Below are positions 11,483 to 56,400 of a stretch of DNA of 64,000 nt, one piece after another. Source of the stretch: Bolinopsis microptera (Eukaryota > Ctenophora > Tentaculata > Lobata > Bolinopsidae); assembly GCF_026151205.1 (NCBI RefSeq), contig NC_087075.1, positions 3,260,359-3,324,358 of the forward strand, read 5' to 3'. The notes under the pieces were generated by a model. That model made no database searches. It was not told the DNA's origin and saw only the letters and a program-made list of their open reading frames with translations. Made by a program: the position numbers and the translations under genes. Each line of letters opens with the position of its first letter. The stretch's first letter is position 1.

Positions 11483-14400
11483 GTAAGTGCTGGTTTTAAA
11501 TCAATATAATGCAAGAGACACTGTCATATACTGCAATCTGCGTTTTTCTTTTTCAAACATAGTATTCCAATAAACTTTAGTTTTTCTCGTAAATTTGCTA
11601 AACCAATTAATTCACAACTTACCAAAATAATAAATAATAAATATTCATCGAAGAACTGGTGAGTATGTAAATTAGCGCCTCGATATCAATTGATATGGTT
11701 AAATTTATCAATCGCTTGTTGATAATCAGTTGATATGGTAATTGAATCGCTTGTTGATAATCACTAACTGTCGCATTTGCAGATTTGGACGGAGCCTCAG
11801 ACGCGAACTATGAATCTACAGTGGAGTGTGCCTCCCCACTTATAGAAGTAGACGGGTTATGTAGTAAGTATGCCTTCTTCTCTTTCTCATTGTTTTACGT
11901 CGCCAAACTAATAATCAAGTATCTCAGTTTCTACGCATAATACTGATGTTTATCCTTTCTTTAACACCACGTGTTCTCTAATTAACACCACGTGTTCTCG
12001 CAGAGGAGTGCTCAGCTGGAACCTACATCGGCACCTCAGACTGTATTGACTGTCCGATTGGTACCTACACAGACACAGTCAGTCAATCCTCCTGTACTGC
12101 CTGTGGAGGTGGTACCAGCACAATGAGTATCGGCTCCACCGCCTCCAGTGACTGCATAGGTTAGTTATATCGACTGGTTCAGGGTATTTGTTTAGGTTCA
12201 TTACTAATTATTCAGTATTGTCCACAAATGACTTTTCTTTAATAACTAAATCACCATATTTCTGCTGCATTATAGTAAAACAACACGTGACCTCCCTTTT
12301 CAGCCATATGCACGGTCCCCACTGCAACCTTCTCGAGCAGTATGTATCCACTTGCTGGAACTAACGTGGCAACTGGTACCACAATTACCACATTCTGCCA
12401 GAATGAGTACTATATCGATGGTCAGAGTACTAAAACGGAAGCCTGCAGCACCACACCTACTAGTTGTAGTAGTAAGTGATTTTACATATTGTCTTTTAAA
12501 CCTTGGTTACAAATGATTACCAATGGTTACTAACGATTACTATTGATAACTTATGGTTACTAATGGTTACTAATGGTTACTAATGGTTACTAATGGTTAC
12601 TAATGAATCTTCTCACAGAGGTGACAACAACAATTGGACAGAGCGGCTACTTCACAGCTGGATCTAACGTCCAGCTGACTTGTACTGTAGTTACTGGTGA
12701 TACTCTTACCTTAAACGATCCGTCTAAATGCTCTTGGACCGAAGGAGGCATTGCCATTCCCAATTCCGGCGGGGCCTCGTTTAGGTATGTCAATAATCTT
12801 AATGACAGTTAATTTAGGCACTCTAATTCTTTAGAATCACGCACTGCTGGTAATTGCCAGGAACTTGAAATTCAGGGTCTTATTTAACCTCTCTCAGTGC
12901 TCACACTACTGCTGCTAACACGTACGAGTGTGTGCAGACATTATCTGGAGTGACCTCCAGTAGCGCAGGTATCTACGCTTGTTCTGCTGTTATTGCCTCC
13001 AGAACTGAAAGTGCCATCTCAACTGCTACCCTCAATGTTCTGAGTAAGTTTATTGTCTCTTAGTTTATAATGTTGCACTGATCAGTGCTAGAAGTAACTT
13101 GTTGTAAGATTAGTAGTCTCATTGCTTCCTCATTAATATGTTTCTAATAAAGCATTTCAGCTAACTGACACTCTACTTCAGCTCTCACATACGACACGGC
13201 ACAAGTAGTAGATATCCTAGGAGTATCTATTCAGTTAACGTGTACAGCAACCATGCCAGCCCCTCTTAGCGCTATACTTACCTTCGAGTGGGAGAGAGAT
13301 GGAACCTTAGTTACATCAGGTGAGTTGTCAGGTGGTGTGATGTCATGTCAGGTGGTGTGACGTCATGTCAGGTGGTGTGACGTCATGTCAGGTGGTGTGA
13401 CGTCATGTCAGGTGGTGTGACGTCATGTCAGGTGGTGTGACGTCATTTCAGGTGGTGTGAGATTAAGAAATTGTTTGCAGGAGACTCTGGTCTAATAGTC
13501 AATATATTTAGAACTAGAACAATCATACCAAGTTGACTTCGTTGGGACACTTAAGTCATTGATTACAAAATGTTTCCTTGTGTTTGAGTTAAACAACTTT
13601 TAAAACAGGTGTGATCTCTGACTCATACGGAACAACACGTGACAGTGTGTTGACTCTATCTCCCCTGGCAAGTACTGACACTGCAAAGTACAAGTGTTTC
13701 GCTACCTACAGTAACATCGGAGTCCTGGAGTCTTCAGAAAAACAAGTCGTCGCTGTCTGTAAGTTTGTGTGTTTACTTTACCTTTTCAGTAGTTGTTATT
13801 TATATTTATCAAACTTTATAATTTATCCAAAAAGCATTGGGATGCTCACAAACCTTAATTTGAAGCTTTCCTTGTTTTTCGCGTTCTCATCAGTGATATC
13901 ATTTCTTATTCGGAAATGTAAATCTACTTACTTGAAAAAAAACGCCAGTCCCGCGGATACGGAAAATCGATTTACCCACACAACGAGCTTGCAAAGGAGT
14001 TTTGACATTTTTGAGTCCCACTAGGTGTCTTCTGACTTTACAATGTCCCATATCACCCTAACTAGGCAGTCATTATTCCTATGTGCCAACTGATAGATCT
14101 ATTTCAAGTCGTTCCAGAATATTTCAGATTGTTTCCGATGATCTTCTGCAGAAGATCATCGGAAACAATCTGAAATATATATACGAGATCATCATGATGA
14201 TCTCGTATATTTCCAATATTGGAAATATGCGAAATCATCAGAAGATCATCGGTAAATCGGGGTTTTTTTCGACGGATCTGTCTGTTATACTATTAGTAGG
14301 GGTTGTAATAAGTTGTGGTTCTGAATGTTGGGGTTTATAATTCAAATATTTGCAGATATCGCGTCGCCTATACCTAACAGACAAGCAGTAGCAGCAACCA

Positions 14401-20400: not shown

Positions 20401-23400
20401 CCCACTAGATAAACCCCCACTAAATTAACCCCCACTAAATAAACCCCCGCTAAATAAACCCCCGCCAGATAAACCCCCCACTAGATAAACCCCCCACTAG
20501 ATAAAACCCCACTTAATAAACCCACCACTAAATAAACCCACCACTAAATAAACCCCCGCCAGATAAACCCCCCACTAGATAATCCCTCATCTAGATAAAC
20601 CCCCCACTAGATAACCCCACACTAAATAAACCCCCACTAAATAAACCCCCACTAAATAAACCCCCACTAAATAACCCCCACTAAATAAACCCCCACTAAA
20701 TAACCCCCACTAAATAAACCCCCACTAAATAACCCCCACTAAATAAACCCCCACTAAATAAACCCCCACTAAATAAACCCCCACTAAATAACCCCCACTA
20801 AATAAACCCCCACTAAATAACCCTCACTAAATAAACCCCCACTAGATAAACCCCCCACTAGATAACCCCACACTAAATAAACCCCCACTAAATAACCCCC
20901 ACTAAATAAACCCCCGCCAGATAAACCCCCCACTAGATAACCCCACACTAAATAAACCCCCACTAAATAAACCCCCCACTAGATAAACCCCCACTAAATA
21001 AACCCCCACTGAATAACCCCCACTAAATAAACCCCCACTAAATAAACCCCCACTAAATAACCCCCACTAAATAAACCCCCACTAAATAAACCCCCACTAG
21101 ATAACCCCACACTAAATAAACCCCCACTAAATAAACCCCCACTAAATAAACCCCCACTAAATAAACCCCCACTAAATAAACCCCCACTAAATAAACCCCC
21201 CACTAGATAACCCCACACTAAATAAACCCCCACTAAATAAACCCCCACTAAATAAACCCCCACTAAATAAACCCCCCACTAAATAAACCCCCCACTAGAT
21301 AACCCCCCACTAAATAAACCCCCACTAAATAACCCCCACTAAATAACCCCCACTAGATAACCCCCCACTAGATAAACCCCCCACTAAATAAACCCCCCAC
21401 TAGATAAACCCCCCACTAGATAAACCCCCACTGAATAACCCCCCACTAAATAAACCCCCACTAAATAACCCCCCACTAAATAAACCCCCCACTAGATAAC
21501 CCCCCACTAGATAAACCCCCCACTAGATAACCCCCCACTAGATAAACCCCCCACTAGATAAACCCCCCACTAGATAAACCCCCCACTAGATAAACCCCCC
21601 ACTAGATAAACCCCCCACTAGATAAACCCCCCACTAGATAACCCCCCACTAGATAACCCCCCACTAAATAAACCCCCCACTAGATAAACCCCCCACTAGA
21701 TAAACCCCCCACTAGATAAACCCCCCACTAGATAAACCCCCCCACTAGATAAACCCCCCACTAGATAACCCCCCACTAGATAAACCCCCACTAGATAACC
21801 CCCCACTAAATAAACCCCCCACTAAATAAACCCTCACTAAATAAACCCCCCGCCAGGAATAATCACATCGCCGACCTCTGACAATGTCGTACAAGGAGCT
21901 CTTGTAACCTTATCCTGTGTTGCCTCCACCCTGACAGAGCCGACTGTGGTCTGGAAAGAAGGACTTAGCTCCGAAAATACAGTAACAGCTGGATCGGGAA
22001 CCTCCATAACTAACACTTACTCTGGCACTTCCTTCACCAGGTGACTATTAATTTTCATGTTGTTAATTTTATCTTATATATCTTAAATCTTTTCAAACAA
22101 TACATGATTTTACAGAAATGAATGAATCTAAATAAACCCAGATATACATTATACAACGAGGAATCCGATCTATCCCCAGTTAACAGTGCAAAATTGTGCA
22201 GTAATGAATACCACACCCGCAATAAGATTGGACCGTTGACAGCGTTAACGTTGTTAACGTTGTTAACGTTGTTAAAGTTGTTAACGTTGTTAAAGTTGTT
22301 AAAGTTGTTAACGTTGTTAACGTTGTTAACGTTGTTAACGTTGTTAACGTTGTTAACGTTGTTAACGTTGTTAAAGTTGTTAACGTTGTTAAAGTTGTTA
22401 AAGTTGTTAACGTTGTTAACGTTGTTAACGTTGTTAACGTTGTTAACGTTGTTAACGTTGTTAACGTTGTTAACGTTGTTGACGTTGTTGACGTTGTTAA
22501 CGTTGTTGACGTTGTTAACGTTGTTAACGTTGTTAACGTTGTGAACGTTGTTAACGTTGTTAACGTTGTTAACGTTGTTAACGTTGTTATTTCTTTTAAA
22601 GATCCCACGTGCACCACTCTCAACTTCCTGAAATGTTCCACTAACAAAGAAATCAACTTTATCCTTATTTCAGCGTGTTGATATTTCAATACACTGTGTC
22701 CACTACAGACACTTACGCGTGTGAAGTAACGGATTCCTCCACCACCTACACGTCTTCAAAGGCCAACTTCACCCCCCTCGGTTAGTACTCTTTCACCACC
22801 TACACATCTTCAAAAGCCAACCTCATCCCCCTCGGTTAGTACTCTTCCACCACCTACACATCTTCACAAGCCAACCGCATCCCCCTCGGTTAGTACTCTT
22901 CCACCACCTACACATCTTCACAAGCCAACCTCATCTCCCTCGGTTAGTACTCTTCCACCACCTACACATCTTCACAAGCCAACCTCACCCCCCGGTTAGT
23001 ACTCTTCCACCACCTACACATCTTCACAAGCCAACCTCATCTCCCTCGGTTAGTACTCTTCCACCACCTACACATCTTCACAAGCCAACCTCATCCCCCT
23101 CGGTTAGTACACTTCCACCACCTACACATCTTCACAAGCCAACCTCATCTCCCTCGGTTAGTACTCTTTCACCACCTACACATCTTCACAAGCCAACCTC
23201 ATCCCCCTCGGTTAGTACACTTCCACCACCTACACATCTTCACAAGCCAACCTCATCTCCCTCGGTTAGTACTCTTTCACCACCTACACATCTTCACAAG
23301 CCAACCTCACCCCCTCGGTTAGTACTCTTCCACCACCTACACATCTTCACAAGCCAACCTATCCCCCTCGGTTAGTACACAATTTTTTTATTACTCAGAA

Positions 23401-26400
23401 CTGTAAGTATTATTACTTGGAACTGTTAATATCATTACTTGGAACTGTAAGTATTATTACTTGGAACTGTAAGTATTATTACTTGGAACTGTAAGTGTTA
23501 TTACTTGGAACTGTAAGTGTTATTACTTGGAGCTGTAAGTATTATAACTTGGAGATGTAAGTGTTATTACTTGGAACTGTAAGTGTTATTACTTGGAGCT
23601 GTAAGTGTTATTACTTGGAACTGTAAGTATTATTACTTGGAACTGTTAATATTATTACTTGGAACTGTAAGTATTATTACTTGGAACTGTAAGTGTTATT
23701 ACTTGGAACTGTAAGTGTTATTACTTGGAACTGTAAGTGTTATTACTTGGAGCTGTAAGTGTTATTACTAGGAGCTGTAAGTGTTATTACTTGGAACTGT
23801 AAGTATTATTACTTGAAACTGTAAGTGTTATTACTTGGAACTGTTAATATTATTACTTGGAACTGTAAGTATTATTACTTGGAACTATAAGTATTATTAC
23901 TTGGAACTGTAAGTATTATTACTTGGAATTGTAAGTATTATTACTTAAATTTAACACTTCCACTTCCAGTGATCACGAGTCAGCCTGCGGCTGTGATAGC
24001 AAAGTCCGGTGACTCCCAAGCAGGTCCTATTTCTTGCACCGCCTCCGATCACAGCTCCCTTACTATTTCCTGGTTTAAGGTAGGTCCATTTATCCTCTGG
24101 ATTTGATTCCATGTTTGATTCTATGTTTTATTCTATGTTTGATTCTGTGTTGTTTGCATAATTTAGGTATTGGCGACGCCAATAACTAAATTGACATTAC
24201 AAAGCAAGCGTTGTTATAGTTGCTATAGTTACTAGTTGCTATAGTTAATGGTTGCTATAGTTACTAGTTCCTATAGTTACTAATTGGTATAGTTACTAGT
24301 TGCTATAGTTACTAGTTGTTATAGTAACCTATGATGAGAAGTTCGTACGGTACGTACTTTTCAAAGTGGCTGTACCGTACGTACTAATAAATTTTTAAAA
24401 AAGTACGATAGATGGGACTTTTGTGACAAAATAATAACAGGAACACTTGAAATGGCGCTACGGGCACCTAAACTTATGTCGCTGCATTTGTATTTCCATC
24501 ATTAAAATAGTATGACTGTACGTACTCCTATTGAGTATAATTGCAGTTATTCAAATTAATTTATTGTCTTAAAAATTATTCAATTCGACTTTAGCATTCG
24601 ATGGCACTAAAATCATGATTTGAAAATTGCATATATACCTGCCAATTTTACAACAATAAAAAATAAAGTAAAAAACGGACACCATTTTAAGAAAAATTTC
24701 GTTCTTTAAACTTTAAGTGGTTGTACGGTACGTACTAATAAAAACTTCTTACCGTACGTACTTTAAGCCGGGTACGGTACGTACTTCTCATCTTAGATAT
24801 TAACTGGTTGCTATAGTTACTAGTTGCTATAGTTACTAGTTGCTATAGTTACTAGTTGCTATAGTTACTAGTTGCTATAGTTACTAGTTGCTATAGTTAC
24901 TAGTTGCTATAGTTACTAATTGCTATAGTTACTAGTTGCTATAGTTATTAATTGCTATAGTAACAAGCGTTACCAGTTTTGCTAGTGGATTACCAATATT
25001 TCGGTAATACAAGTTTGAGTTGAAGGCAGTTCTAGAGTAGTACTCATGCCGTACAGTCATCGTTCTGCCTCCGTCGTCATTAAATTGTGCGACATTTTCA
25101 GGGAAACATTTCAATGAAAGAAAAGTATATCTATAATCTAAACCCAGTTAAATTTACTCTCTTTTGTTAAATTTAATCTTTTCTGTTACATTTACTCTCT
25201 TTTGTCACTAGAACTTTATTTTCTATTATTTAGAAAACATGCAAGATAGATAACGGTTACTACTTACTAGTTGCTATAGTTACAAGATAGATAACAGTTC
25301 CTCTCTCACAGGGAAGTACTGAACTGACGGATACTAATAAATACTCCTTCTCGTCCACTTCCGGTGTAGGAGAAATGACGGTGATAAACGATGTGAATAT
25401 AGGTAAACAGATAAACAGTCTGACAATGTAATGCCACGTGTCAAGTGTGCAGTGTCACGTGCAATGCCACGTGTCTAGTGTTCACCTTCCCACCAGTCAT
25501 CTTGTTTTTTGTTCTGAAACTCGGTGCTTTTAAATTTAATGCCTTGATGATGCAGATTGTTGATATGTTTATCATTCTATTATTACCTTATTACATATTA
25601 TATGTAATAAATTAATACCTATTTGTAATATACATTAATACATTTATATTAATTAAATAAAAAACAGTCTCTCCTCCACCTATCAATTATTACAATTTTT
25701 TATTTTAAATATATAAAAATAATGTGGTATTCACTAGTTATAGTTACTATTTGATATTATAGTTACTAGTTGCTATAGTTACTAGTTGTTATAGTTACTA
25801 GTTTAAATGTATAATGAGGTATTTTTATCACATCTCCTCAGACGATGCAGGTGACTACTACTGCAAGGCAGAGTACGCACAGAATGGGAACTTCAACGGG
25901 GGTAGCGTTACCTCTAACTCCGCAACTCTCGATATTATCAGTACGTTATCTTATAACTTTATAAGCTCTAAAGGTAAAATGACGTTTAAATCTAACTATT
26001 ATTACATTCATTGCCAAATATAAACCAAATAATTCAAGACTAAAAGTAAAAACTAAGAATAACATGCATTTTTCCAGGCATTGTTGACGAACCGTCTGAA
26101 CTAAGAAAATACTTCAATACCGCAATATTCAATACAGCGTACTCTCTTCCTCCGTGTGTTGCAATTGGGCCCAAAGAGGCTGACACAGCTACCTGGTAAA
26201 TATGAAGCGAACATTTTGTAACATTTTCCCAGTTTCCTAATAAAGTCCCTGTCTTAATGTCTCGAGTATTATAATTAAAGATAACTGGATTTGTTTACAG
26301 GACTTCCTATGCAGATATGACCGCAACCACTTCCACCAAGACGTATGATCCTAACACCAAAAAGACCACGACCACTCTATCGTGGGCATCTATACCGGTA

Positions 26401-29400
26401 CAATTTAAATAATAAGAATTTTACTGTAAATTCATAAGAGTATATTAAAGTTTAAACATAATACAGAATCTAAATCGATTGTTACGTGTTACTCCAATTA
26501 CTGTAAAAATAAACAGCAGCATATAATTATTATATATGATAATTATATGCTGCTGTATATATACAAGATACTGATTTGATCAGCGAAGTGCTGTCTTTTA
26601 GCTTAGACTTAGAGGGTGTTTTGGTTAAGTCTATTTTTAAACTTTAAAATAAATCTTAAAGTCAAAATACTTTGAAGTAAAAAATTAAGATTGATGAGGT
26701 ATTCTTACTATACAATAGGACCATCTTACTATATATAAAGCGAGACGATATATACAGGATGGGCCAAAATTAAGTGGGCATACGTTGGCCTTATAATAGC
26801 TCCGCCGAGTTTTATATTTGAGAGCTGTTGCTTTGCAGATGGCATACTGTACTAAATTGTTCGAGGATTCCGTCGTCAAACTTTGAAAATTCGAATATTT
26901 TAGACCACGCCCATTCAATATTAAAACACCTTTTGTATCTCGTTAACAAAATTGACTGGGTGATTATGTGACACCGTGACACGACACCTTAATTGGGCAC
27001 CGCCTTAACAATTTCCATAATGTTTAACGGGGTGGTTAACGGGGTCACCTAATCAAGTGATTAGGTAAACACATGACCGGATCACACGTAATGAATAAAC
27101 TCGTTATGATTCATATCTCGGTCATCTGAGAATCTAAATTTCTACAGTTCTAAATTTTTCAGGACAATCGTAATTCGAGTGGCCAAACACAATTCAATAA
27201 AATTTAGCTCGATCCGACTATTAAAACTATCAAATAAATGCAAAAATGAACCTTCATATGAAAAAAATGAAATCGAATATTTTTCGATTTGACAAATTCC
27301 TCTAACCAGTGTTGGTTATCTCACACTTATTTTACTTCGGAGTATTCCAACAGCCACATTGTTACACAAGTGTAACTAGCCAATTACAGGAAGCCGAAGG
27401 ATTTAATTAGGCCAGTGACGGTTAAGGTAGTGTGTACCATACTTTCTTCGCCCGAGACTTCGCTGCAATGGACAGCTTCTCATTTAACCCTCACACACGA
27501 TTTCTCGAATATTCGGCTGAGTAGACCGGGGGGCTGCATAGACCACTCAGGATCATTAGCTGAATGTCGACGACACTCACCCCACGACTAGGCAGGCAGT
27601 GGGTTTCGAACTCGCAATCTCACGATTACAAATCCGATGATTAACCAACTACGCTACCTGGCCGTTAGACTTCGCTGCAATGGAGTTGTAAGTCAAACAA
27701 AAAATATCTCAATTGGGCACTCAGTAACCGAGCTATTAAGGCCAACGTATGTCCACTGACTTTTGGCCCACCCTGTTACAGGGTGACCCTGTATAAATCC
27801 GTATTATTTTACTGAAACCACGGCATCAACTTTAACACGACTTTCTTCAAAAACTGTAAAAGATATACAACTTTTTTGACTGGTGCGAATGCTTAAGTGG
27901 CCTTCAAATCAGCATGAAACAAAAAATTGGTATTATTCCTGATATAACGTTAATCTTCACAGAATGATTTGAGTGGCAGTGCATACATCTGTACTATAAC
28001 ATATGACGCTAACAGTGTCCAGATTCCCTTTATGATGGAACCCACATGTAAGTCAACACTCAACACTTTCAAATAATAACAGTTATAATAATATATATAT
28101 ATATATTATATTGTATAGGTTAGAAATAAAGTTCTTCCTTTGAAAAATATTTGATGTAATATATTAAATATTTTGTATAATGTATGACGTATGTATATAT
28201 GTATAATGTATATTGTATATTAATCCAGTTTTTACTTCAGCTAAGGGCTTTGTGACCCACCCAACCTCAGTCGTCCAATCAGGAACTGCAGTTACCTTCA
28301 CCGCCGTTGTGGACGGCTCCCTGAGTTCCATATTGTATAAAACAATACTATGGTACGGTGTTATTCCGGGGTCCTCATATTATGTAAGTTTTTAAATAAC
28401 TTGAATAAGGTGATAGTAACGGTAATAGTAACGTTACTATAGCAACCATGTGAAGATGATAGTAATGGTGATAGTAACGTTACTATATTAACCATTAACC
28501 ATGTGAAGGTGATAGTAACGGTAATAGTAACGTTACTATAGCAACCATGTGAAGATGATAGTAATGGTGATAGTAACGTTTCTATAGTAACCATGTGAGG
28601 GTGATAGTAACGGTGATAGTAACGTTACTATAGTAACCATGTGAAGGTGATAGTAACGGTGATATTAACGTTACTATAGTAACCATGTGAAGGTGATAGT
28701 AACGGTAATATTAACGTTACTATAGCAACCATGTGAAGGTGATAGTAACGGTGATATTAACGTTACTATAGCAACGGCAAAACAATAGTGCTTAGTAAGT
28801 TTTTTTAATTGATTGAAATTCTTCTTTTCAGGTCTCTTTAAGTGGAGTAGATGGATACACAATTACTGTACCGACAGAGGCTTCCCTGACTTCAGAATTG
28901 CGAATAGACACAGCAAGTGTAACAGCTGATTTATACACGGCTTACGTGGCAGGGATTTATGTAACTTCATCCACCATGGCTTATTCTACCGAAGCTTATC
29001 TGTATAAGCGAGGTAAGCAATTTTGCGGCATTTTTAGATATTTCAAAAAGCATCGGTCCACTGAACTATCCCTTTACTTATTAGTAGAGCTAAAATTGAC
29101 AAATCACATTGTTTTCTTGTCATGTTTTTACTATCATACAAGCTAATTCAAAATTACTATCTGGAAATATTAATAAGCGAATTGTTAAACGGTTGAATAT
29201 TCGATCATCAATGAGATACGCTCCCATGAATGAATAAATAGTATTTCACAGAAATAACAACATAAATATTATTTCCTCCGAAATAACAACGCAAACATTA
29301 TTTCCTCAGAAATAACAGCATAGATATTATTTCCTCCGAAATAACAACGTAAATATTATTTCCTCAGAAATAACAATGTAAATATTATTTCTTTAGGAAT

Positions 29401-32400
29401 AACAACGTAAATATAATTTTTTCAGAAATATCAACGTGAATATTATTTCCTCAGAAATAACAACGTAAATATTATTTCCTCAGAAATATCAACGTAAATG
29501 TTATTTCCTCAGAAATAACAACGTCCCTGTTTGGACATACTTATTCACTTCCGGGGACGGCTTACACCATTACTTGTACATATGAAGGTGACGCCACAGA
29601 CAGCCTGAAATGGTAACGTACAATTATAATTATTTAAAAACTTTAATTGATTAAACTAATTAATTAATATTAATTAATTAATATTTATTAAAACTTTATA
29701 GATTTAGATACTGGTTGGGAGCTGTTCAGATGTTTCTGACATTTGACACTGTGACAGTGATCAACCAATCAGCTTCCAGCATCGACAAATTAAAATCTAG
29801 ATTCACGTGTAAAACAAATATGGTTACTTTGCCGCAAGTAGGTATATTGATTTGAGGTTGAATCTCATTTAAGCATTTATAAGGTGTAATTCAGCCGGTT
29901 AGACCGTATCTAGACGGTACGTAACGCATCACGCGATGAGTCACGTGATGGTGTATTTCTTCTAGCTAAACGTGATGTGACGCGTTACGTGATCGATTGC
30001 GTCACGTACCGTCTAGCTACGGTCTTAGGTGGGGGGGGGGGGGGGGTAGTGTGACACCAGTTTCTAGTAAAAGTAAACTAAGAGATCACGTGATAACACA
30101 TGTCGTGTAACTAAAAGATCACATAATTAATTACACATACGTGTAAATAATCAAAATACCAACCGTCCTCACAATTACAAATTTGTTATTTTAATTAATT
30201 TCTGTTTCAGGTACAAGGATGATGTTGAAATAGAACAAATAGCAGGCAAGATCAGCTCACAGAACACTTACTATCAAAATCTCAAACAGGTTTGTGAACA
30301 TTTTGTAGAAAATTATAATACCCTTTCAAGAGTTGTACTGCTGTGTGAAAGTTCCTGTCTATACGAAGGACTGGAAACTGGTTGGAAGTGTAACTTTTCC
30401 GCACTCGTGACAGCAATTAACCAATCAGATTCAAGCATTGACCGAACATAGACCGATCAAAATCCAAAGTCACTGTCACGTGTCAAAACAAATATGCTAC
30501 ACAGCTCTCAACCAGGATCCACGTTTATAATATTCACCCACTAATTGTTCAAGTCAACAATACCAGTTAATTACCACTTAATTGCCACTCAATAACCACA
30601 TAATTACCATATAATTACCACTTAATTGCCACTTAATTTCCACTTAATTACCACTTGATTACCACTTATTAATTACCAGGTGTCGACGTTATTCTTTGAG
30701 TCATCCACAGCTTCGGATTCTGGATCTTACAAGTGTAGAGCTATTACGACCGATTCTACGGTGACCGTTGATTCGGCTGCCACTTACATTGGCTTCCCAC
30801 GTAAGTACCGTTACATCATTACCATGGTTACTTCGTTTTTATACTATTATACTGTAAAATGTAAATGGATGGAATTCACCACTGTATGCTCAATGTTCAT
30901 CAAGTATAATATTATGTAAATTATATGTTAATCTATTATTTGCCAATCTGAGTTATATGTAAATCCTAAAAAACTCTGCTACCTTGGGGTAACATGTCAC
31001 GTTATGGCCATATAAGCGCGTGTTAACATGCCCCAACTACCCAGGTTTTATTCCTCCAAGTACTCTATACACGACAGTCGGTTCTACTATATCAGTGTCC
31101 TGTACCCTAGAGCTTGACACTTTGTTGCAATCCAGCTTCTCCAGCGGCGCGTCCTGTAAGTTCCATCTAGTTCACCTATATTTTCCACAAAATCTTTCTC
31201 ATAATAATATATGCAATTAGTTTATGTTCAATTTTTGCTACTTATATAACCAATCTGCATATACTATTATTTAATCATTAATTATTTAATAGTTATGTAG
31301 TTCTGTGTGTTATCCTTTCAATTTATAATTTTACTGATTAATGGTGTATTTTCAGACTTAGTCAGGGACAGCACTTCGATCTCCACTCTAAACCTGATCG
31401 GTGGATCTACAACCAGTACAACCCTGCTGCTAGCAGCAAATGACGTATCATTGAATTCTGCAAGTTTGTTCTCTCCAACGGTGTCCTACAAGTGCAAGGG
31501 CTACTTCACTGGAAATAACATTCCATTTTATTCAGCGACGTTCGACATACGCCAACTTGGTAAGATATTTAAATCCCTTATAAACCCGTTATAAACCCGT
31601 TATGAACCCCTTATAAACCCGTTATAAACCCGTTATAAACCTCTTATAAACCCGTCATAAACCCGTCATAAATCCCTTATAAACCCCCCATAAACGTGAT
31701 GGGTCGTTTGCGACCCGGACGAGTGGGTCGTTTTTGTTCATCGTTGTATCTTTTAAAGTAAACGATATAGATTAGCTTTTTTGGATAACTCATTTTTGCT
31801 GTGAAGTGACCTAGTGTGTTAAATTGCATCAAAATGGGCGAATTTTAAAAATCGTCGTCCCTTATGGGTTAAACCCCATTATAAACCCCTTATGAACCCC
31901 TTATAAACCTCTACCTGTGCTACTATCGAGTTAAATTCGAAGGAGAAATGCATTATTTACAAAGCTGAAATTGTATCTTTTCACTGCTAATCATAGGTCT
32001 AATATGAATGTTTTGTGGCACTAACGCTGAGAATCCCTCAATCTCTCAATAAAATATCTGACAAAAGGTGCACGTGATAACCAGGTGCACACGGTAAGTT
32101 ACCATGGTAACCAGTTGCATATTTCAGAGATAACCACAGCGCCATCTGACGTGAACACAATCGCTGGTGTTTCAGTGACCTTCACCTGCTCTGCCTCCAG
32201 TCCTACTGATTACACTGCAGATATCAACTTCTACCTCTCAGCCGACCCTATTAGTTAGTTGTAACTTTGTTTTAAGAGAGTGTGTGTGACGTCACGTGAG
32301 AGTGTGTGACGTCACATGAGAGTGTGTGACGTCACGTGAGAGTGTGTGACGTCACGTGAGAGTGTGTGACGTCACGTGAGAGTGTGTGACGACACGTGAG

Positions 32401-35400
32401 AGTGTGACCTAATAGTTATTTGTAAGTATGCTATATTGCGGAGTGGCGCTATTTCTATAACTATAATTTCTATAATTATATGATTATAATTAATTATTGT
32501 AGTACATAACCTACTAACAGCCTGACACCAAGCTGCATAATAGTCTTTATAACCATAAAGCAGTTAAATCAATATAATACCAAGAAATAGCAATTGTAAT
32601 GCAAATATAATCTAACGATATTTCTTGAAAACATGAAAGATATAACATTTCCGAACTACACCAGCTGCTCTGACCAGTGGGGGAGACTACACAGTCAGCT
32701 CGATAACTACAACTAACTTCATCGCCACCAAGACCTTGTCACGTACAGCCACCACTGACGAGAGCTTTAAGTGCGCGGTAGTGTACAGCTCACTAGCTGT
32801 GGTTGGAGGGAGTAATATAGTCACTAGTAGTCCGGCTTCTATCAACATACTCGGTGGGTAACTGGTTATTGGTTTAATTTATTAGGTTAATTCATTAGGT
32901 TAATTAGTTTACACTCCACTGTGTTTATTATATCAGTCCAATGTCTGGGTTGTTATCTCCAACTTAATAATTCGATGTGATAGTGTTTTGGTACTTATTA
33001 CTATAATTAATTTAATTAATAACACAATATTGCCCAGCGAACACTGGTGCCGCCACAGCCACCCTCAACGGGTATGACGGAGTTGCCCTAACCCTCTCAT
33101 GTGCATTCTCTTATACCCCCACCTCGGTAAGTGCATACTCATTGTTATCAATAACCTTCAGTTCTAAACAGAGCAGTTCTGGCAACTTAGTCCAACATCT
33201 TGTCACGTGTTTATCTTATCACGTGTTTATCTTGTCACGTGTTTATCTTGTCACGTGCTAAGCCTATCACGTGTTTATCTTATCACGTGCTAAGCTTATC
33301 TTTTCATCAGATCACGTGGTCTAAAGACAACATCCTTGTGGACACTACAGCTAACTCTGGTTACGAAAAATCCTCTTCTGCACCTAACCACTATCTCAAA
33401 ATAGTATCTCCCCAAACTAGTGACGCAGGTGATTATTAACTGTTACAATATTTATTAGTGGACCATGAAATGTAATGTTTAATAACGAAATTGAAATAAT
33501 TAATTGAAGTGATTAATTGAAGTAATTACCGTAGTTGTAGTGATTTAAATTAATTGAGGTAGATGGTGTTCTCCGACTAAACTTTATTTATTTAGAGCTT
33601 CTAAACCTCGCATTTCAGGTTCCTACACGTGTGTCGCGGACTACGGAACAGCGACCGTTTCTGGAACCGTGACCACTCTAGCAATCAAAGGTATGTAACA
33701 CGTCATAATATCACGAACCAGATTCAATATCTACTGGTTATCCTAAATCATGACATATTGATCTGTTCCTGAAAATTGAAACTTGTGACTTCACATTGAC
33801 AATAATGCAACAGCAAGAGTCAGCAGTATAATAATTTTCACTAAATTTGCAACACTCCAGGGTTCAGCGTGGTACCGACCTATACTAAAGTTGGGGCAGA
33901 CGCCGCCTTCACCATGTCCTGTACCATATCAGCTGGTCTGGGAACTAGCGGCAATCTGGAAATGTACAGAGCTCACCCCTCCTTCATCTCAGGTACGTAA
34001 CCTTAGTCAATGTTTATAGTACACCTTTAGTGTTACTTTACCTTGTTTGGACATATTTGAGATATTTTTGGTTTTGTCTCTTATGGCCGGATACGGTTCA
34101 AGTTGTTTCCCCGTAAAACTGGAGCGTTAGAAAAGGCCTGGTATATATTATATTGAATAATGAATATAACGATTGGATCCTAAATTAATGATTTATTATA
34201 AATACACAAACATCAGGTTGGGTAGCTGTTACTAATATCCACTATTCAGGTTGAACTACTGTTACTAATATCCACTATTCAGGTTGTCCTACTGTTACTA
34301 ATATCCACTATTCAGGTTGGGCTACTGATACTAATATCCACTATTCAGGTTGGGCTACTGTTACTAATATCCACTATTCAGGTTGGGCAACTGTTACTAA
34401 TATCCACTATTCAGGTTGGGCTACTGTTACTAATATCCACTATTCAGGTTGGGCTACTGTTACTAATATCCACTATTCAGGTTGGGCTACTGTTACTAAT
34501 ATCCACTATTCAGGTTGGGCTACTGTTACTAATATCCACTGTTCAGGTTGGGCTACTGTTACTAATATCCACTATTCAGGTTGTCCTACTGTTACTAATA
34601 TCCACTATTCAGGTTGGGCTACTGTTACTAATATCCACTATTCAGGTTGGGCTACTGTTACTAATATCCACTATTCAGGTTGGGCTACTGTTACTACGGG
34701 TGGCCTTATAACCATGGACCTGGAAGCCAAGGAGCTACAGATCAAAACAGATTCAGCCCCCAGTTCCAACGACAAGGTTAACGTAGAGTTCTACACCAGT
34801 CAGGACGCCAAGATCGGCAGTCTTGAAATAAATTTCGCGGCAACACTTACCTACCAGGTATCAGGGTGTCACTCGTCAGCGGTCACCTTCCCAAGCCCAC
34901 CCACTACTGACTTGGAGAAAGTGTGGAGAATAACGGAGAAGGCAGACCACACGGAACTGTACATACATTGTAATGATGAGCTGGTGGTGACCCTTACTTA
35001 CAGTGGTGTAGCCAACTGTGGTTCTACCTATAATGATGACAGCGCTAAAATCAAATTTGCGGCTGATGATACCGCTTCTGATTCGTATAGGATAGTGGGT
35101 AAGTGGTGAAGATGAGTTTATCAATGAAATCATAACTAGGGTAGTGTATCTTCTCTTTTAAAAGAAACTTTCTTGGCATTAGGAGGAATCTTATTTATGA
35201 CAATGACAGTAACTACACTAATTACACTAAATACAATAACTACACTAATTACACTAAATACAATAATTACAATAATTACAATAATTACAATAATTACAAT
35301 AATTACACTAAATACAATAATTACAATAATTACAATAATTACAATAATTACAATAATTACAATAATTACAATAATTACAATAATTACAATAATTACAATA

Positions 35401-44400: not shown

Positions 44401-47400
44401 TCCGAAATCACGAATGAGCAAAATGTTCACTTTTCGCACTGCATGCAAACTTTAAAGCTTTAAGCGGACGTTGCATGCGCATCCGATATTGAATCACCGT
44501 AAATTTTTGCATATTCGTAATTTATTAATAGTTTGATAAGCATGCAAAGTTTCTAAATTAACTAATTTCTAAACAATTATCTTCAAGACTTGTGGAATGT
44601 GGTTCAATATGACTGTATCTTTAAAGCTGATTTGAGGCCTCTCAATCTTACTTAAGTACTTAGTTGAGTGTGTCCCACAACCAAGCTCCTTGCCTAGAAT
44701 TCCTGCATTATATAAGTATATACTTATATAATACTAAAAAACCCGTGGTCACAGTGAGGAAGCTAATACTAATAGTTTTTTTTGTTAGTAAGTTTAAATC
44801 GAGTCAAAAAATTGTCTTATCAGTTAATTGCTTTTGCGTCGGTTTAAACAGCTCTCACTGTGTAGCAGATAATATACTCGTGTATATTAAACTGGCCCTG
44901 CGTGTACATTGTACATCATGGTTAACAAATACTTGGAGAATCTTGACAATGAAATAGCGATGAATTACTCTACACTCAAATTCAGATCAATGTATGCTGA
45001 ACAGATTTTGGGTGCTCAGATTATGCTACTCAACGATATGCGTCAAGCGGCAGGTGTTCAGAAATCCAATGTGTTACGTAAAGAAACGCTCAACAAGCCT
45101 CAGATCACCAAGGCTATACTGTGTGATTGGATGGAAACTCTTATCGACATTCTCGACAGTTATTGTTCACCGCTGTTGTTTTCAGCCACCAAACTACAAG
45201 ATGAAATCGACCAACTGAAGGACGAAAAGATTGCAGATCAGAACACTGTGATTAAACTGCAAGGACAATTGCTTGAGAAGAAAAGTGAAGATTTGACCTC
45301 TATTCAGACGACAGTGAAAAGCGAACTCAAATCCTGGTCGTCAGTTGTGAAGAATTCATGCAGCAAGGCGCTAGCGCCTAAGAAAATGAAAGCTGCTCTG
45401 AAACGTGCCTCCGAGGAAGAGGATCGTAGTCAAAATCTGGTCATCTACGGTCTACCAGAAAAGAGTGAAGAAATCCTGGAAAAGAGAGTGCTTGAGGTAC
45501 TAGAAAACATAGATGAGAAACCTCGAATCGTTTCTTGCTGTAGGATGGGGAGAACTGTATCAGATGGAGGACCAGCCGTTAAACCTATCAAGTTCACTCT
45601 CAGCGGCTCAGATCATGTGCGGCGAGTGTTGAGCAAAGCGAGAAAACTAAGAGAAGTGGAGGGGTATGACTCAGTGTACATCAGCCCCGACCGATCAGCC
45701 GAGCAGAGAGCTGCCTTCAGGAAGTTAGTTCTTGAAGTTAAGCAGAAACGGGAATTGGAGCCTCAGCGAGTTCATGTTGTAAGGAACAATAAGATCGTAA
45801 GCTCCGAGAAGGACTGATGGGATATGATTTTTTATCAACATATTATTTGATTGATTTTCATTTACCAGGGACTAGGCTTGTGCGGTGTGGTTTCGACTAC
45901 AATTTTACTGCGTTCTGGTTTCCCTTTGAAATTTACATACATCTGTCCTTTAGAGATCGCAATCAGTTATATTTTGATTTTATTTTGCGCCACATGTTAT
46001 ATTGTATGTAAATTTTGAAAAGATTTTCATAAAAAAAAATCCTACACAACCAAAGATACAGCCGATCAAAATGTTGCTCGCACTAAACACAACGTAATAT
46101 CAACAAAACCGATAAAAATGCCGTTCTAACAATCTTTGCACGTGCCTGTAACAACCTTCGTTACCATGGTTACTTTGCAACTTTTTGCTTTTTACCGAAT
46201 TTGCACGTGGGCGGTCGTACATCAGCAAAAATAATTCACTGAATTATAATATAGACTAGAAAGCCCGTGGTAACTGGGATGAAGCTAAAAGTATTATTTG
46301 AAAGAAATTTTTAATCGCATCAAAAAAGATCCATCCCAACCGAAGATACAGCCGATTTAAATATAAAAACTTTAAACACAACGTAATTACCACAAAACCG
46401 ATAAAAAATGACGTTAAAACAATCTTTGCACGTGCATGTGTGCATTAAAACACCGTTGCTATGGAAATTGGAACCTTTTGATTGTTACCGAAATTCTTAT
46501 TTTTTATCTAGTTTGCACGTGGGCGGTCGTACATACATTTTTTTATACAGCAGAAATAATTTTCTGAATTATAAGTAAGACTAAAAAACCTGTAGTCACA
46601 GGGAGGAAGCTAATAGTTTTCTTTTGTAATCAGTTTTTATCGCATTAAAAAACATCCGTCACAACCGAAGATACAGCCGATTAAAATGTAGTTCGCACTG
46701 AACACAACGTAATTACATCAAAACTGATCAAAATGTCGCTCGCCAATCTTTGCACGTGCACGTGCGTGTAGCAATCCTTGTTACCATGGTTACTATGCAA
46801 CTACTTATTTTCATCTAATTTGCACGTGGGCGGTCGTACAGACGTATACATTCTACAGACAGCTAAAATAATTCTCTGAATTATAAGTAAGATAATGAAC
46901 CTGGACATATATAGCTCGCAGCTCTATAAAGAAAACAAAAATTGCGCCCATTGTTTCGTTTTGGCGGACGCTAGATTTCCATTCCACATTTACTATAAAT
47001 TTAGGTATAAGCTCCAATCAGCTCACTTTCATGATTATAATATTGATAAATTATGCATCAAATACGGGAAACACTTGAAATTCAGTTCAATTGCCGTAGA
47101 ACTTAACTTGTATCTGTAATTCAAGAAATTCACTATTGCCTTTTTACAAAAGGGTGAAAATGAAAAAATCTTTAAAAGTTTAAAGCTTTTGAATCTACGG
47201 ACACTTAAATAGTTAAATATAGGCTATAATTGACTGCCAAAGCGTCTATATTCCCTGAATATATCTATATAATAAATGTATATATCACAGCAATCTATCG
47301 TAAAACAGGGGTTCCAGAAAACCCACTTCCCGATACTATTGAATCTTGAAACGTTTTTTGCAGTCGATTTGGTCAACATCTAGACGCTCTGCAAAATTTC

Positions 47401-50400: not shown

Positions 50401-53400
50401 ATTTAGTCCCAATTAATCCCTGCAATTTATGAAACAAAATAGCAATAATTTGCTACAAAACTAAATAAACTAAACCCAGCAAATTTATTTTACAAAAAGG
50501 TAAAATTACTTTTATACCCCTAAAATTTCTAAAGGAACCTGTTAATAAATCAACTAGTATTAAAACAGCACAATTTACATTTACCAATTTAAATAAAACC
50601 CAAAACCCATCCCTAAAATATTTCAATTTTAAATTTTTCCCACCTAAATTGCATTTATTTATTTGAAAACTAAAATTTACTAAAATTTTTCCCCCAAAAA
50701 CGGGATACCAATCCGGTAAACCTTTGGAGAAAAAGGGTTTAAAAGGAAAGAAAGTTTATATAACCCCACGAAAAAAGGGGCCCCGGATAAAAAAAAATAT
50801 TCCAAAAATTTTGTTTAAAAATTTCATCCCCAAGGGGAAAACCCAAAAAATTTTAAAATTTAAAATGAAATTAATTGGCAAAAACCCCTTTAATAAAAAC
50901 AGAAAAAAACAAAAAAAATTTTGTTTTTGCCGGAAAGGGAAAAATTGATATAACGAAGGGACCCCCAAAAAAGAAGGCCCCCGAAAGGTTCCCTTAAAAA
51001 AGGAATTTGTAAAACCCCAAACCCCCCCTTTGAAATTATAATATAAAATAAAAGCAAACCAAAAAGGTACCCCCCGAAAAATTTTAAAACCCCTTGGGGG
51101 TAAAAAACCCTTGGGGGTTTTCCCCTTTTTTTTCCCTTTTTTTGGGAGGGGGTTTTTGGGGCCCAGAGGATAGAAAAGTGGTTCCCCTTTGCAATCTTGG
51201 GGTTTGGAAAAGCCTTCTCCTAGGGGAAAAAAGATCCCCCGGAGGGAAACCAAAAAAGTGATGACAGGAAAGAAGGTTTTTTTAAAAAAGGGGGGGGGGT
51301 TTCTTTGAAATTTTGGGAATTTTTGTAAATTTCCGGGTTGGGGAATTCATGAAAAATTCCGGGTTGAAATTTGTAATTTTTTAAATTTGGAATATTTTTT
51401 GGGGCCCCCCTAAATTTTCAGAGGGAATTCCTGTAAATGAAGTGCAATTATTGTATGTGAACACCACCCGCACACACTTTGACACTTATCCAATATTCAA
51501 ATAAAAGCGAACCATCCCTAAAAGGGTACTTCGAATCTTAAACTGCTTGCCAGCGGCTGAAACTTGCAGTTCTATAAATACTTGACTAAACTCGACTATA
51601 CTTGCAGAAGATTGTGTTGCGGGCCAGTATCTGGATCAGTCAAGTGGCTGTCAAGCCTGTCCGGCAGATCAATGGAGTTTAGCAGCAAACGCAGCTTCTA
51701 CCTGCACGGCATGTCCAGCTGACAAAGAGGTAGCCTCTGGATCAGGAACACAAGAAAGTGACTGCACATGGAGTAAGTTGTTGTTTCCTAAAAATTGGAG
51801 GGACCGAAGGGGTTCATCCTGAAATTTATGTTAATCTTAGAAATGCAATAATGTGTGCGAATAAACATAGACTGAAATACTGACGTCAACAAGCAAAGTT
51901 TAGTATTTGTACAATAATTGGTATTACTATACGTTTATGAGGTCCCATCACAGATGCTCGAAAGGAATTCCTGTGAATGAAATGCAACTATTGTATGTGA
52001 ACACCACCCGCACAAGCTTTGACACTTATCCAATATTCAAATAAAAGCGAACCATCCCTAAAAGGGTACTTCGAATCTTAAACTGCTTGCCAGCGGCTGA
52101 AACTTGCAGTTCTATAAATACTTGACTAAACTCGACTATACTTGCAGAAGATTGTGTTGCGGGCCAGTATCTGGATCAGTCAAGTGGCTGTCAAGCCTGT
52201 CCGGCAGATCAATGGAGTTTAGCAGCAAACGCAGCTTCTACCTGCACGGCATGTCCAGCTGACAAAGAGGTAGCCTCTGGATCAGGAACACAAGAAAGTG
52301 ACTGCACATGGAGTAAGTTGTTGTTTCCTAAAAATTGGAGGGACCGAAGGGGTTCATCCTGAAATTTATGTTAATCTTAGAAATGCAATAATGTGTGCGA
52401 ATAAACATAGACTGAAATACTGACGTCAACAAGCAAAGTTTAGTATTTGTACAATAATTGGTATTACTATACGTTTATGAGGTCCCATCACAGATGCTCG
52501 AAAGGAATTCCTGTGAATGAAATGCAACTATTGTATGTGAACACCACCCGCACACACTTTGACACTTATCCAATATTCAAATAAAAGCGAACCATCCCTA
52601 AAAGGGTACTTCGAATCTTAAACTGCTTGCCAGCGGCTGAAACTTGCAGTTCTATAAATACTTGACTAAACTCGACTATACTTGCAGAAGATTGTGTTGC
52701 GGGCCAGTATCTGGATCAGTCAAGTGGCTGTCAAGCCTGTCCGGCAGATCAATGGAGTTTAGCAGCAAACGCAGCTTCTACCTGCACGGCATGTCCAGCT
52801 GACAAAGAGGTAGCCTCTGGATCAGGAACACAAGAAAGTGACTGCACATGGAGTAAGTTGTTGTTTCCTAAAAATTGGAGGGACCGAAGGGGTTCATCCT
52901 GAAATTTATGTTAATCTTAGAAATGCAATAATGTGTGCGAATAAACATAGACTGAAATACTGACGTCAACAAGCAAAGTTTAGTATTTGTACAATAATTG
53001 GTATTACTATACGTTTATGAGGTCCCATCACAGATGCTCGAAAGGAATTCCTGTGAATGAAATGCAACTATTGTATGTGAACACCACCCGCACACACTTT
53101 GACACTTATCCAATATTCAAATAAAAGCGAACCATCCCTAAAAGGGTACTTCGAATCTTAAACTGCTTGCCAGCGGCTGAAACTTGCAGTTCTATAAATA
53201 CTTGACTAAACTCGACTATACTTGCAGAAGATTGTGTTGCGGGCCAGTATCTGGATCAGTCAAGTGGCTGTCAAGCCTGTCCGGCAGATCAATGGAGTTT
53301 AGCAGCAAACGCAGCTTCTACCTGCACGGCATGTCCAGCTGACAAAGAGGTAGCCTCTGGATCAGGAACACAAGAAAGTGACTGCACATGGAGTAAGTTG

Positions 53401-56400
53401 TTGTTTCCTAAAAATTGGAGGGACCGAAGGGGTTCATCCTGAAATTTATGTTAATCTTAGAAATGCAATAATGTGTGCGAATAAACATAGACTGAAATAC
53501 TGACGTCAACAAGCAAAGTTTAGTATTTGTACAATAATTGGTATTACTATACGTTTATGAGGTCCCATCACAGATGCTCGAAAGGAATTCCTGTGAATGA
53601 AATGCAACTATTGTATGTGAACACCACCCGCACACACTTTGACACTTATCCAATATTCAAATAAAAGCGAACCATCCCTAAAAGGGTACTTCGAATCTTA
53701 AACTGCTTGCCAGCGGCTGAAACTTGCAGTTCTATAAATACTTGACTAAACTCGACTATACTTGCAGAAGATTGTGTTGCGGGCCAGTATCTGGATCAGT
53801 CAAGTGGCTGTCAAGCCTGTCCGGCAGATCAATGGAGTTTAGCAGCAAACGCAGCTTCTACCTGCACGGCATGTCCAGCTGACAAAGAGGTAGCCTCTGG
53901 ATCAGGAACACAAGAAAGTGACTGCACATGGAGTAAGTTGTTGTTTCCTAAAAATTGGAGGGACCGAAGGGGTTCATCCTGAAATTTATGTTAATCTTAG
54001 AAATGCAATAATGTGTGCGAATAAACATAGACTGAAATACTGACGTCAACAAGCAAAGTTTAGTATTTGTACAATAATTGGTATTACTATACGTTTATGA
54101 GGTCCCATCACAGATGCTCGAAAGGAATTCCTGTGAATGAAATGCAACTATTGTATGTGAACACCACCCGCACACACTTTGACACTTATCCAATATTCAA
54201 ATAAAAGCGAACCATCCCTAAAAGGGTACTTCGAATCTTAAACTGCTTGCCAGCGGCTGAAACTTGCAGTTCTATAAATACTTGACTAAACTCGACTATA
54301 CTTGCAGAAGATTGTGTTGCGGGCCAGTATCTGGATCAGTCAAGTGGCTGTCAAGCCTGTCCGGCAGATCAATGGAGTTTAGCAGCAAACGCAGCTTCTA
54401 CCTGCACGGCATGTCCAGCTGACAAAGAGGTAGCCTCTGGATCAGGAACACAAGAAAGTGACTGCACATGGAGTAAGTTGTTGTTTCCTAAAAATTGGAG
54501 GGACCGAAGGGGTTCATCCTGAAATTTATGTTAATCTTAGAAATGCAATAATGTGTGCGAATAAACATAGACTGAAATACTGACGTCAACAAGCAAAGTT
54601 TAGTATTTGTACAATAATTGGTATTACTATACGTTTATGAGGTCCCATCACAGATGCTCGAAAGGAATTCCTGTGAATGAAATGCAACTATTGTATGTGA
54701 ACACCACCCGCACACACTTTGACACTTATCCAATATTCAAATAAAAGCGAACCATCCCTAAAAGGGTACTTCGAATCTTAAACTGCTTGCCAGCGGCTGA
54801 AACTTGCAGTTCTATAAATACTTGACTAAACTCGACTATACTTGCAGAAGATTGTGTTGCGGGCCAGTATCTGGATCAGTCAAGTGGCTGTCAAGCCTGT
54901 CCGGCAGATCAATGGAGTTTAGCAGCAAACGCAGCTTCTACCTGCACGGCATGTCCAGCTGACAAAGAGGTAGCCTCTGGATCAGGAACACAAGAAAGTG
55001 ACTGCACATGGAGTAAGTTGTTGTTTCCTAAAAATTGGAGGGACCGAAGGGGTTCATCCTGAAATTTATGTTAATCTTAGAAATGCAATAATGTGTGCGA
55101 ATAAACATAGACTGAAATACTGACGTCAACAAGCAAAGTTTAGTATTTGTACAATAATTGGTATTACTATACGTTTATGAGGTCCCATCACAGATGCTCG
55201 AAAGGAATTCCTGTGAATGAAATGCAACTATTGTATGTGAACACCACCCGCACACACTTTGACACTTATCCAATATTCAAATAAAAGCGAACCATCCCTA
55301 AAAGGGTACTTCGAATCTTAAACTGCTTGCCAGCGGCTGAAACTTGCAGTTCTATAAATACTTGACTAAACTCGACTATACTTGCAGGAAGGATTGTGTT
55401 GCGGGCCAGTATCTGGATCAGTCAAGTGGCTGTCAAGCCTGTCCGGCAGATCAATGGAGTTTAGCAGGCAAACGCAGCTTCTACCTGCACGGCATGTCCA
55501 GCTGACAAAGAGGTAGCCTCTGGATCAGGACACAAGAAAGTGACTGCACATGGAGTAAGTTGTTGTTTCCTAAAAAATTGGAGGGACCGAAGGGAGTTCA
55601 TCCTGAAATTATTAAGTTAATCTAGAATTTGCATTAAAGTTGTGCGATAAACATTGACTGAAGATACTGACGTCAACACAAGCAAAGTTAGTATTTGTTA
55701 CAATTAATTGGTATTACGATACGTTTATGAGGTCACCATCACAGATGCGCGAAAGGAGAATTCCCTGTAATGAAATGCAACAATTGTATGTGAACACCAC
55801 CCCACACTTTTTTGGGACATTTAAATCCAATATTAAAATAAAAAAACGAACCACCCCCTAAAAGGGTACTTCAAATTTTTAAACCTTCTTGCCAGGGGCT
55901 AAAATTTGGGCCCAATAAATACTTGATTTAAACTCGCCAATACTTTCAAAGATTGTTTTTCGGGCCAGTCTTTTGGATAAAGGCAATGGCTGTCAACCTT
56001 CCGCAGTTAAGGGATTTTAAACCAGAAAACGCAGCTCTCCCTGCACGCATGTCCACGGCCAAAGGGGTACCCCTTTTGGATCGGGAACACAAAAGTGCCT
56101 GCACAGGGATTTAATTTTGTTGTTTCCTAAACATTGAGGACCGAAGGGGTTCACCCCTAAATTTTAATGTTAATCATAGAAAAAAAAAATAATGGTTGCG
56201 AATAAACAAAAACTAAAAACCTGACGTCAAAAAGGGCAAAGTTTAGTATTTGTACAAAATTGGAAATTACTATACTTTATGAGGCCCCCACACAGATGCT
56301 CAAAAAAATTCCTGTGAATAAAAAGCAACTATAGTATTGAACCCCACCCGCACACACTTTGAAAAAACTTACCCAATATTCAAAAAAAAAAAGGGAACCA

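Follow-up and report, generated by a model that had tools for sequence, protein, structure and literature searches.

A gene rich in tandem arrays

The window, by which we mean the whole 64,000-nucleotide stretch of Bolinopsis microptera DNA analysed here, contains a gene that our own exon model resolves into a long chain of Ig-like half-domain exons. Pfam comparison of three such stretches returned Ig families for two of them, one above the curated cut-off. Exon 39 looks like the first half of an Ig-like domain, a label given by eye, since exon 39 joined with the exon before it had no match in Pfam. Nine of the 52 exons predicted between 11.78 and 49 kb were discarded on manual inspection because they were not Ig-like, overlapped arrays or looked transposon-like (start positions 14066, 23772, 30029, 36069, 36265, 39999, 42595, 42979 and 45020). 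A long open stretch at 45020–45796, within the span of the gene, resembles a retroelement protein by eye.

Tandem arrays of at least 60 bp fill 26.5% of the interval from 11.7 to 49.7 kb, whereas they fill 3.6% of 202,700 bases in 49 paralog loci. Arrays shorter than 60 bp were excluded and only the best-scoring of overlapping TRF rows was kept, so that one array with a 54-bp unit is counted with a period of 322. Of the 26 wholly intronic arrays between 11780 and 49700, 9 have an end no more than 25 nt from an acceptor, where 3.5 would be expected (p 0.0016). The donor side had no excess at 15 or 25 nt (5 arrays within 25 nt, where 3.4 would be expected) and a slight excess at 40 nt (9 arrays versus 5.5 expected, p 0.044). 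The units of several intronic arrays in this interval contain TTACTAA-like, branch-point-like words.

Three of the 30 arrays straddle a predicted splice site: the 33-bp array described below, a 29-bp array across the acceptor at 29513 and the 54-bp array across the donor at 22780. The 29-bp array (29235–29524) consists of 10 units, 7 with an intact CAG and the others decayed, and each of the 6 upstream CAG acceptors leads in phase to a stop after 3 codons. The 54-bp array (22738–23378) repeats an exon tail and donor (GGTTAGT) with donor spacings of 52–54 nt in the window, and a reading frame continued across the donor at 22780 runs into TAG at codon two. It forms a donor-side mirror image of the acceptor array. 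A preliminary description, made from the letters of the window, had stated that the other border repeats of this gene run into stops, and this is true of both that were found. A 22-bp array of 25 units, with the donor-like ACTGTAAGTA in its consensus, lies at 23388–23946.

Anatomy and reading frame of the 33-bp array

The 33-bp array comprises 14 units of exactly 33 bp each (Table 1). TRF reports it at 34213–34696 with period 33, 14.7 copies, 96% matches and 0% indels, and as a run of head-to-tail units within the 10–100 bp range it is a minisatellite. TACTAAT is present in 14 of 14 units and TTCAG ends all 14. The start of exon 40, fixed by hand at 34679, is a partial fifteenth unit that matches the others over their first 18 nt, giving 15 similar acceptors at the exon 40 border, spaced 33 nt apart. 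In these respects the preliminary description was accurate: it had listed 14 units with both motifs, a unit of 11 codons (33 = 3 × 11, here without indels in the spacing) and an exon 40 start that is itself the next unit.

Table 1. Features in and around the 33-bp array, in window positions
Feature	Position	Strand	Basis
Preceding exon (exon 39), ending in phase 1 (TCA G/gtacgt)	33861–33992	+	own exon model
Putative ancestral intron tail and acceptor 1	34201–34216	+	paralog intron tails; acceptor kept in second gene copy
Array of 14 × 33 bp; unit read as exon head (~17 nt), branch-like TACTAAT and TTCAG acceptor	34217–34678	+	
Putative ancestral exon head in unit 1 (W-V-A-V-T)	34217–34233	+	paralog exon heads
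In-phase TGA of unit 2	34252–34254	+	
Units 3–14, open in phase, 12 × 11 codons WATVTNIHYSG	34283–34678	+	
Exon 40 from the last acceptor; galectin-like predicted fold	34679–35098	+	paralog matches, structure model

In the phase of the preceding exon, the sole stop over the 14 units is the TGA of unit 2, which agrees with the earlier statement that units 3–14 are open, and 281 open codons run from 34255 to the exon 40 donor. Acceptor 1 reaches this TGA after 11 codons and acceptor 2 meets a stop at once, whereas the 13 acceptors from 3 to 15 meet none before the end of exon 40 and would add from 12 down to 0 copies of WATVTNIHYSG. The proposal that 13 acceptors could be used without a frameshift, with 0–12 extra repeats, thus holds at the level of the reading frame.

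The genome assembly (264.65 Mb in 232 contigs, with nearly all hits on the contigs numbered 1 to 13) was searched for further copies. For a glutamate receptor encoded in this genome, the best match among solved structures is Mnemiopsis ML032222a, which is in keeping with a lobate ctenophore. A unit query gave 7 matches, all inside the array, and TACTAATATCCACTATTCAGG at no more than 2 mismatches gave 14, again all in the array, with 1 for the reversed control pattern.

Origin of the unit

Searching the genome with exon 40 yielded 363 first-look candidates and 150 scored matches, exon 40 included, and similar intron ends precede many of its genome matches. Our paralog set comprised 60 exon matches of these 150, at 50 loci, some of them overlapping. 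Among the 60, 56 begin at residue 1–3 (exon 40 and some doubly fetched exons included) and the 4 starting after residue 3 were excluded; the AG lies at the same place in 55 of the 56, exon 40 again included. Depending on the sequence length compared, 48 or 49 distinct acceptors remain besides that of exon 40.

In 47 of 48 comparisons with distinct paralog heads, the 17-nt head of unit 1 is more similar than that of unit 15. Of the 17-nt intron tails, the one preceding unit 1 is nearer to the paralogs than the one preceding unit 15 in 41 of 48 cases (3 ties, 4 worse). These counts are not independent, the paralogs being mutually related. As both head and tail of unit 1 lie nearer to the paralogs than those of unit 15, the comparison places the ancestral acceptor at 34216/34217. 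The direction of the difference is plain in these alignments, which describe the array as a multiplied intron-exon border, each unit being about 16 nt of intron tail and about 17 nt of exon head. By the same comparison it is unit 1, and not the last unit, that holds the ancestral exon start, which corrects the preliminary description.

No array crosses any of the 49 other distinct paralog acceptors, and a wider class of arrays at exons of the exon 40 type was set aside on this count. Intron gain by tandem AGGT duplication would leave a new intron with both ends derived from duplicated copies. CAGGT occurs 15 times over the array, but GTTGGG makes a poor donor by eye, and the 55 of 56 shared AG positions indicate an acceptor that predates the array.

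Splice signals in the units

Acceptor strength was scored with a matrix trained on the 41 other predicted acceptors of the gene, a training set that favours those 41, and both the scores and the exon chain rest on our own exon predictions. Acceptors 2–15 scored 9.1–10.0 bits, the 34th to 49th percentile, against a median of 10.1 for the 41 others, and acceptor 1 scored 8.1 bits (27th percentile). On these scores, every unit looks like a complete and average 3′ splice site. A splice-site minisatellite has a usable-looking site in each unit at a real border, and the array resembles one in the scores of acceptors 2–15 and in its paralog-supported border.

The claim that the units carry a branch-point motif stands in part. 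The looser word YTAAY is enriched: in the gene's 41 other predicted acceptors it precedes 21 at a distance of 10–45 nt, compared with 20% of control positions. The exact CTAAY, however, occurs at 8 of the 41 and the exact TACTAAY at only 1, so that TACTAAT does not emerge as the branch consensus of the gene and, judged by these counts, is not its usual branch word. The branch A of the array CTAAT lies 14 nt before each exon start by hand count, 15–18 nt being the commonest distance in the other introns.

Openness of the frame against chance

The preliminary description treated the open frame as a distinguishing feature and asked whether its lack of stops exceeds chance. It does not. An imagined 33-bp duplication that includes 16 nt of intron tail would keep the phase free of stops at 37 of the 42 other acceptors in the window and at 44 of the 48 in the paralogs; with the tail varied from 27 to 6 nt, the window count ranges from 21 to 41 of the 42. 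Across imagined border duplications with periods of 12–60, 23.9% were both frame-neutral and open. Periods divisible by three are found in 11 of the 30 arrays in the gene (best TRF row). Since the best TRF row has 0% indels in 12 of 17 arrays of at least 200 bp, exact 33-nt spacing is not special either. Stop-free length was discarded as evidence of coding because two of the three forward frames are equally open, the other one also having a single stop over the 14 units.

No sign of a synonymous bias was seen. Changes in units 3–14 comprise W to C together with A to P (units 3 and 12), V to D, Y to C and one synonymous change, that is, one synonymous among four distinct events where 25% would be expected at random, the events being too few for a decision. 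The most changed units are 1–3, at the upstream edge, and unit 12, which copies unit 3. Of six mutation events, five lie within the first 13 positions and outside the splice signals (p 0.038), and p rises to 0.12 when the cut is set at position 17. The high chance of openness, the 11 of 30 periods and the lack of synonymous bias together weaken an adaptive reading. Selection for the frame was dropped as unneeded in view of the controls on openness, period and the second open frame; by sequence, the open frame is about what chance would give and not special.

A second, inverted copy of the gene

An inverted second copy of parts of the gene, between the exon at 22674 and exon 39, lies about 350 kb away at C4:3.642–3.667 Mb. 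Near exon 39, introns differ at 28 of 601 compared columns (about 4.7%, with 25 gap columns left aside) and exons at 4 of 322, all third codon positions. Exon 39 itself encodes an identical protein with 2 nucleotide differences, both at third codon positions. The second copy could be either a paralog or a misplaced allele.

Unit number differs between the two copies in all seven of the other comparable arrays of at least 60 bp (window versus second copy): the 54-bp array has 11.9 and 16.9 units, the 46-bp array 7.9 and 10.9, the 11-bp array 9.8 and 22.7, the 9-bp array 38.4 and 6.6, and the 22-bp array 25.4 and 28.7, the latter lying no more than 6 nt from the end of the compared locus; a 16-bp array has 6 and 18 CACGTG words, and for the 29-bp acceptor array 10 units in the window, of which 7 keep an intact CAG, compare with 2 acceptors in the second copy. 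A 15-bp array that runs off the end of the compared locus was left out. These differences lend indirect support to the length variability proposed for the 33-bp array. The 7 versus 2 acceptors of the 29-bp array indicate that border arrays do change size, and its two copies form a natural few-versus-many pair for studying acceptor duplication.

At the exon 40 border, the second copy retains acceptor 1 and the opening 23 nt of unit 1, from which a single G has been lost to give TGG TAG in phase, and then enters repeat-like DNA that recurs at 89% on C5 and C13. The 33-bp array was not found there beyond these 23 nt. None of the 150 scored exon 40 matches is a near-identical exon 40 at the second copy, and none of 25 genome matches of the later exons falls there. 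In the second copy GTTACT directly adjoins AATATCC. Such a junction should arise only once the border had been duplicated, which makes the array probably at least as old as the split of the two gene copies. Stops and length changes other than multiples of 33 in other alleles had been named beforehand as evidence against in-frame variability. The 1-nt deletion and TAG bear on this condition, but they weigh little, because with exon 40 not found at this locus the stop in unit 1 says little about a working allele.

Exon 40 and the modelled repeats

The structure model of exon 40 is a beta-sandwich with pLDDT 88.3. Foldseek gave a galectin as best match (E 2.7e-5, TM about 0.6), and the best 50 of 176 structural matches at E 0.001 or better were all galectins or galectin-like (TM 0.5–0.66, 6–14% identity). 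Sequence searches of Pfam and the PDB with exon 40 gave no convincing relatives. The model thus suggests that exon 40 encodes a domain with a galectin-like predicted fold, and added repeats would precede this domain at its first residues.

AlphaFold run on a single sequence drew the repeats as regular strands with block pLDDT of 81–93 over residues 1–100, and in the same run the exon 40 domain was poorly modelled. Foldseek returned nothing at E 0.001 or better for the repeat model. AlphaFold is over-confident on perfect repeats, and we give the predicted strands little weight.

A proposed ladder of 3′ splice sites at an intron-exon border

We propose, with a probability of about 0.58, that copying of an intron-exon border produced by accident a ladder of 3′ splice sites that is frame-neutral and probably used leakily. 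A segment made up of about 16 nt from the end of the intron, which include the branch-like site and the acceptor, and the first 17 nt of the exon would have been multiplied in tandem at 34216/34217, leaving 15 similar 3′ splice sites at 33-nt intervals. With a period divisible by three and a unit open in phase, 13 of the acceptors would give in-frame messages with 0–12 extra WATVTNIHYSG, and the two upstream ones would lead to a premature stop. With near-identical local signals at acceptors 2–15, more than one is most likely used, and leaky use of several is likely on the sequence. The spliceosome would then produce a mixture of lengths with some unproductive message. Judging from the chance controls, frame neutrality would be luck that let the array spread into the exon and not a selected device. 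When 3′ splice sites are duplicated experimentally, one of them is often strongly preferred, and in this array that one might be acceptor 1 or 2, both unproductive.

Such a preference would be complete if the array were silent, an ordinary intronic minisatellite in which exon context or position sets a single choice, most simply the last acceptor (34678/34679), and leaves 14 decoys. We regard this as possible but unlikely. It fits the setting, in which arrays fill 26.5% of 11.7–49.7 kb and 9 of 26 intronic ones end near acceptors (3.5 expected), and the gene seems to tolerate decoy sites, since its two other border arrays hit stops in phase; yet acceptors 2–15 are so nearly identical that exclusivity would need a rule of position or exon context alone. 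A constant choice at the other end, always the acceptor of unit 3 or 4, would turn the repeats into a constant part of the protein that varies by allele and not by splicing. The 281 open codons favour such a coding minisatellite, as do the predicted strands at pLDDT 81–93 and our exon chain, which rewards open length and chose acceptor 4. We nevertheless consider it improbable: the changes in units 3–14 are mostly non-synonymous with no sign of constraint, though few in number, the strands come from one sequence of perfect repeats with no Foldseek match at E 0.001, and the 49 other distinct paralog acceptors have no such array.

Should the ladder instead be kept for the spread of linker lengths that it allows between the Ig-like and galectin-like parts, its in-frame, open and uniform units would be expected, and so would the sparing of splice signals by 5 of 6 mutations (p 0.038; 0.12 at cut 17). 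We find this most improbable of all, given that 23.9% of imagined duplications are frame-neutral and open, that 11 of 30 periods are multiples of three, that no synonymous bias is seen and that neither the array nor exon 40 turned up in the second copy. A doubtful relative of our reading is a length dial, in which each mRNA ends the intron at a different rung and so carries 0–12 beta-forming 11-residue units, the unit number of the allele setting the range. Were it true, one gene would yield a spread of Ig-like/galectin-like protein lengths.

Short tandem units are hard to polish, and the size of the array in the assembly may be wrong. According to the available part of the source, the published Bolinopsis microptera assembly was built with wtdbg, polished with Illumina reads and Pilon and annotated with the help of Iso-Seq reads (PMC10232365), and the unit number and the TGA of unit 2 might be errors of such a short-read-polished long-read assembly. 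We hold such errors to be very improbable, considering that the most-changed units 1–3 lie at the upstream edge, a pattern usual for minisatellite edges, and that acceptor 1 and the start of unit 1 recur at a second locus.

Relation to known systems

NAGNAG tandem acceptors consist of two sites 3 nt apart. As there, a choice among near-equivalent acceptors would add or drop whole codons here, but the array offers 15 sites at 33-nt intervals and has a branch-like site between one and the next. The nearest precedent by analogy is a donor minisatellite in IFI6 (6-16), of which the acceptor-side array would be a variant; its unit is reportedly 12 bp, like ours a multiple of three, and transcripts were reportedly shown for it, while use of the sites is here predicted from the DNA sequence. 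As far as the portion of the citing source goes, the IFI6 minisatellite has multiple splice donor sites (Nucleic Acids Res 1995, 23:1854–1861, PMID 7596809, cited in PMC2572611), so that in both cases the units carry splice sites and offer many alternatives at one border, on the donor side in IFI6 and, with a branch-like site per unit, on the acceptor side here.

Two routes of intron gain come close. In the part of PMC4974935 available, tandem units of a multiple of three with AGGT and splice sites occur inside a coding region, but these exonic repeats create a new intron, whereas here an existing intron-exon border appears to be multiplied. In intron gain by duplication of an intron-exon segment, described in the same part, branch site, tract and acceptor are copied along as they seem to be here, but the outcome is a new intron and not a 14-unit array. 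Within the portions of the literature covered on minisatellites, VNTRs or tandem repeats and splicing, and on ctenophores, no acceptor minisatellite was recognised. PMC3039753, in the part consulted, concerns a promoter minisatellite and was set aside as a precedent, and the available part of PMC11797021 contains no mention of a galectin or an intron.

Through the array a single intron would naturally offer up to 15 similar 3′ splice sites, 14 of them near-identical and with their own branch-like site, and with them a clean test of how the spliceosome chooses among equal sites by position alone. It suggests how a minisatellite can be born at an intron-exon border and, given a frame-neutral period, extend into the exon. 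As border arrays vary in size between gene copies, with 7 versus 2 intact acceptors at a sister exon, they may offer a route to rapid change in protein length.

At 51608–55012, seven predicted 165-bp cysteine-rich exons with identical protein lie exactly 540 bp apart and are followed by diverged copies; these exons are weakly ephrin-receptor/TNFR-like.
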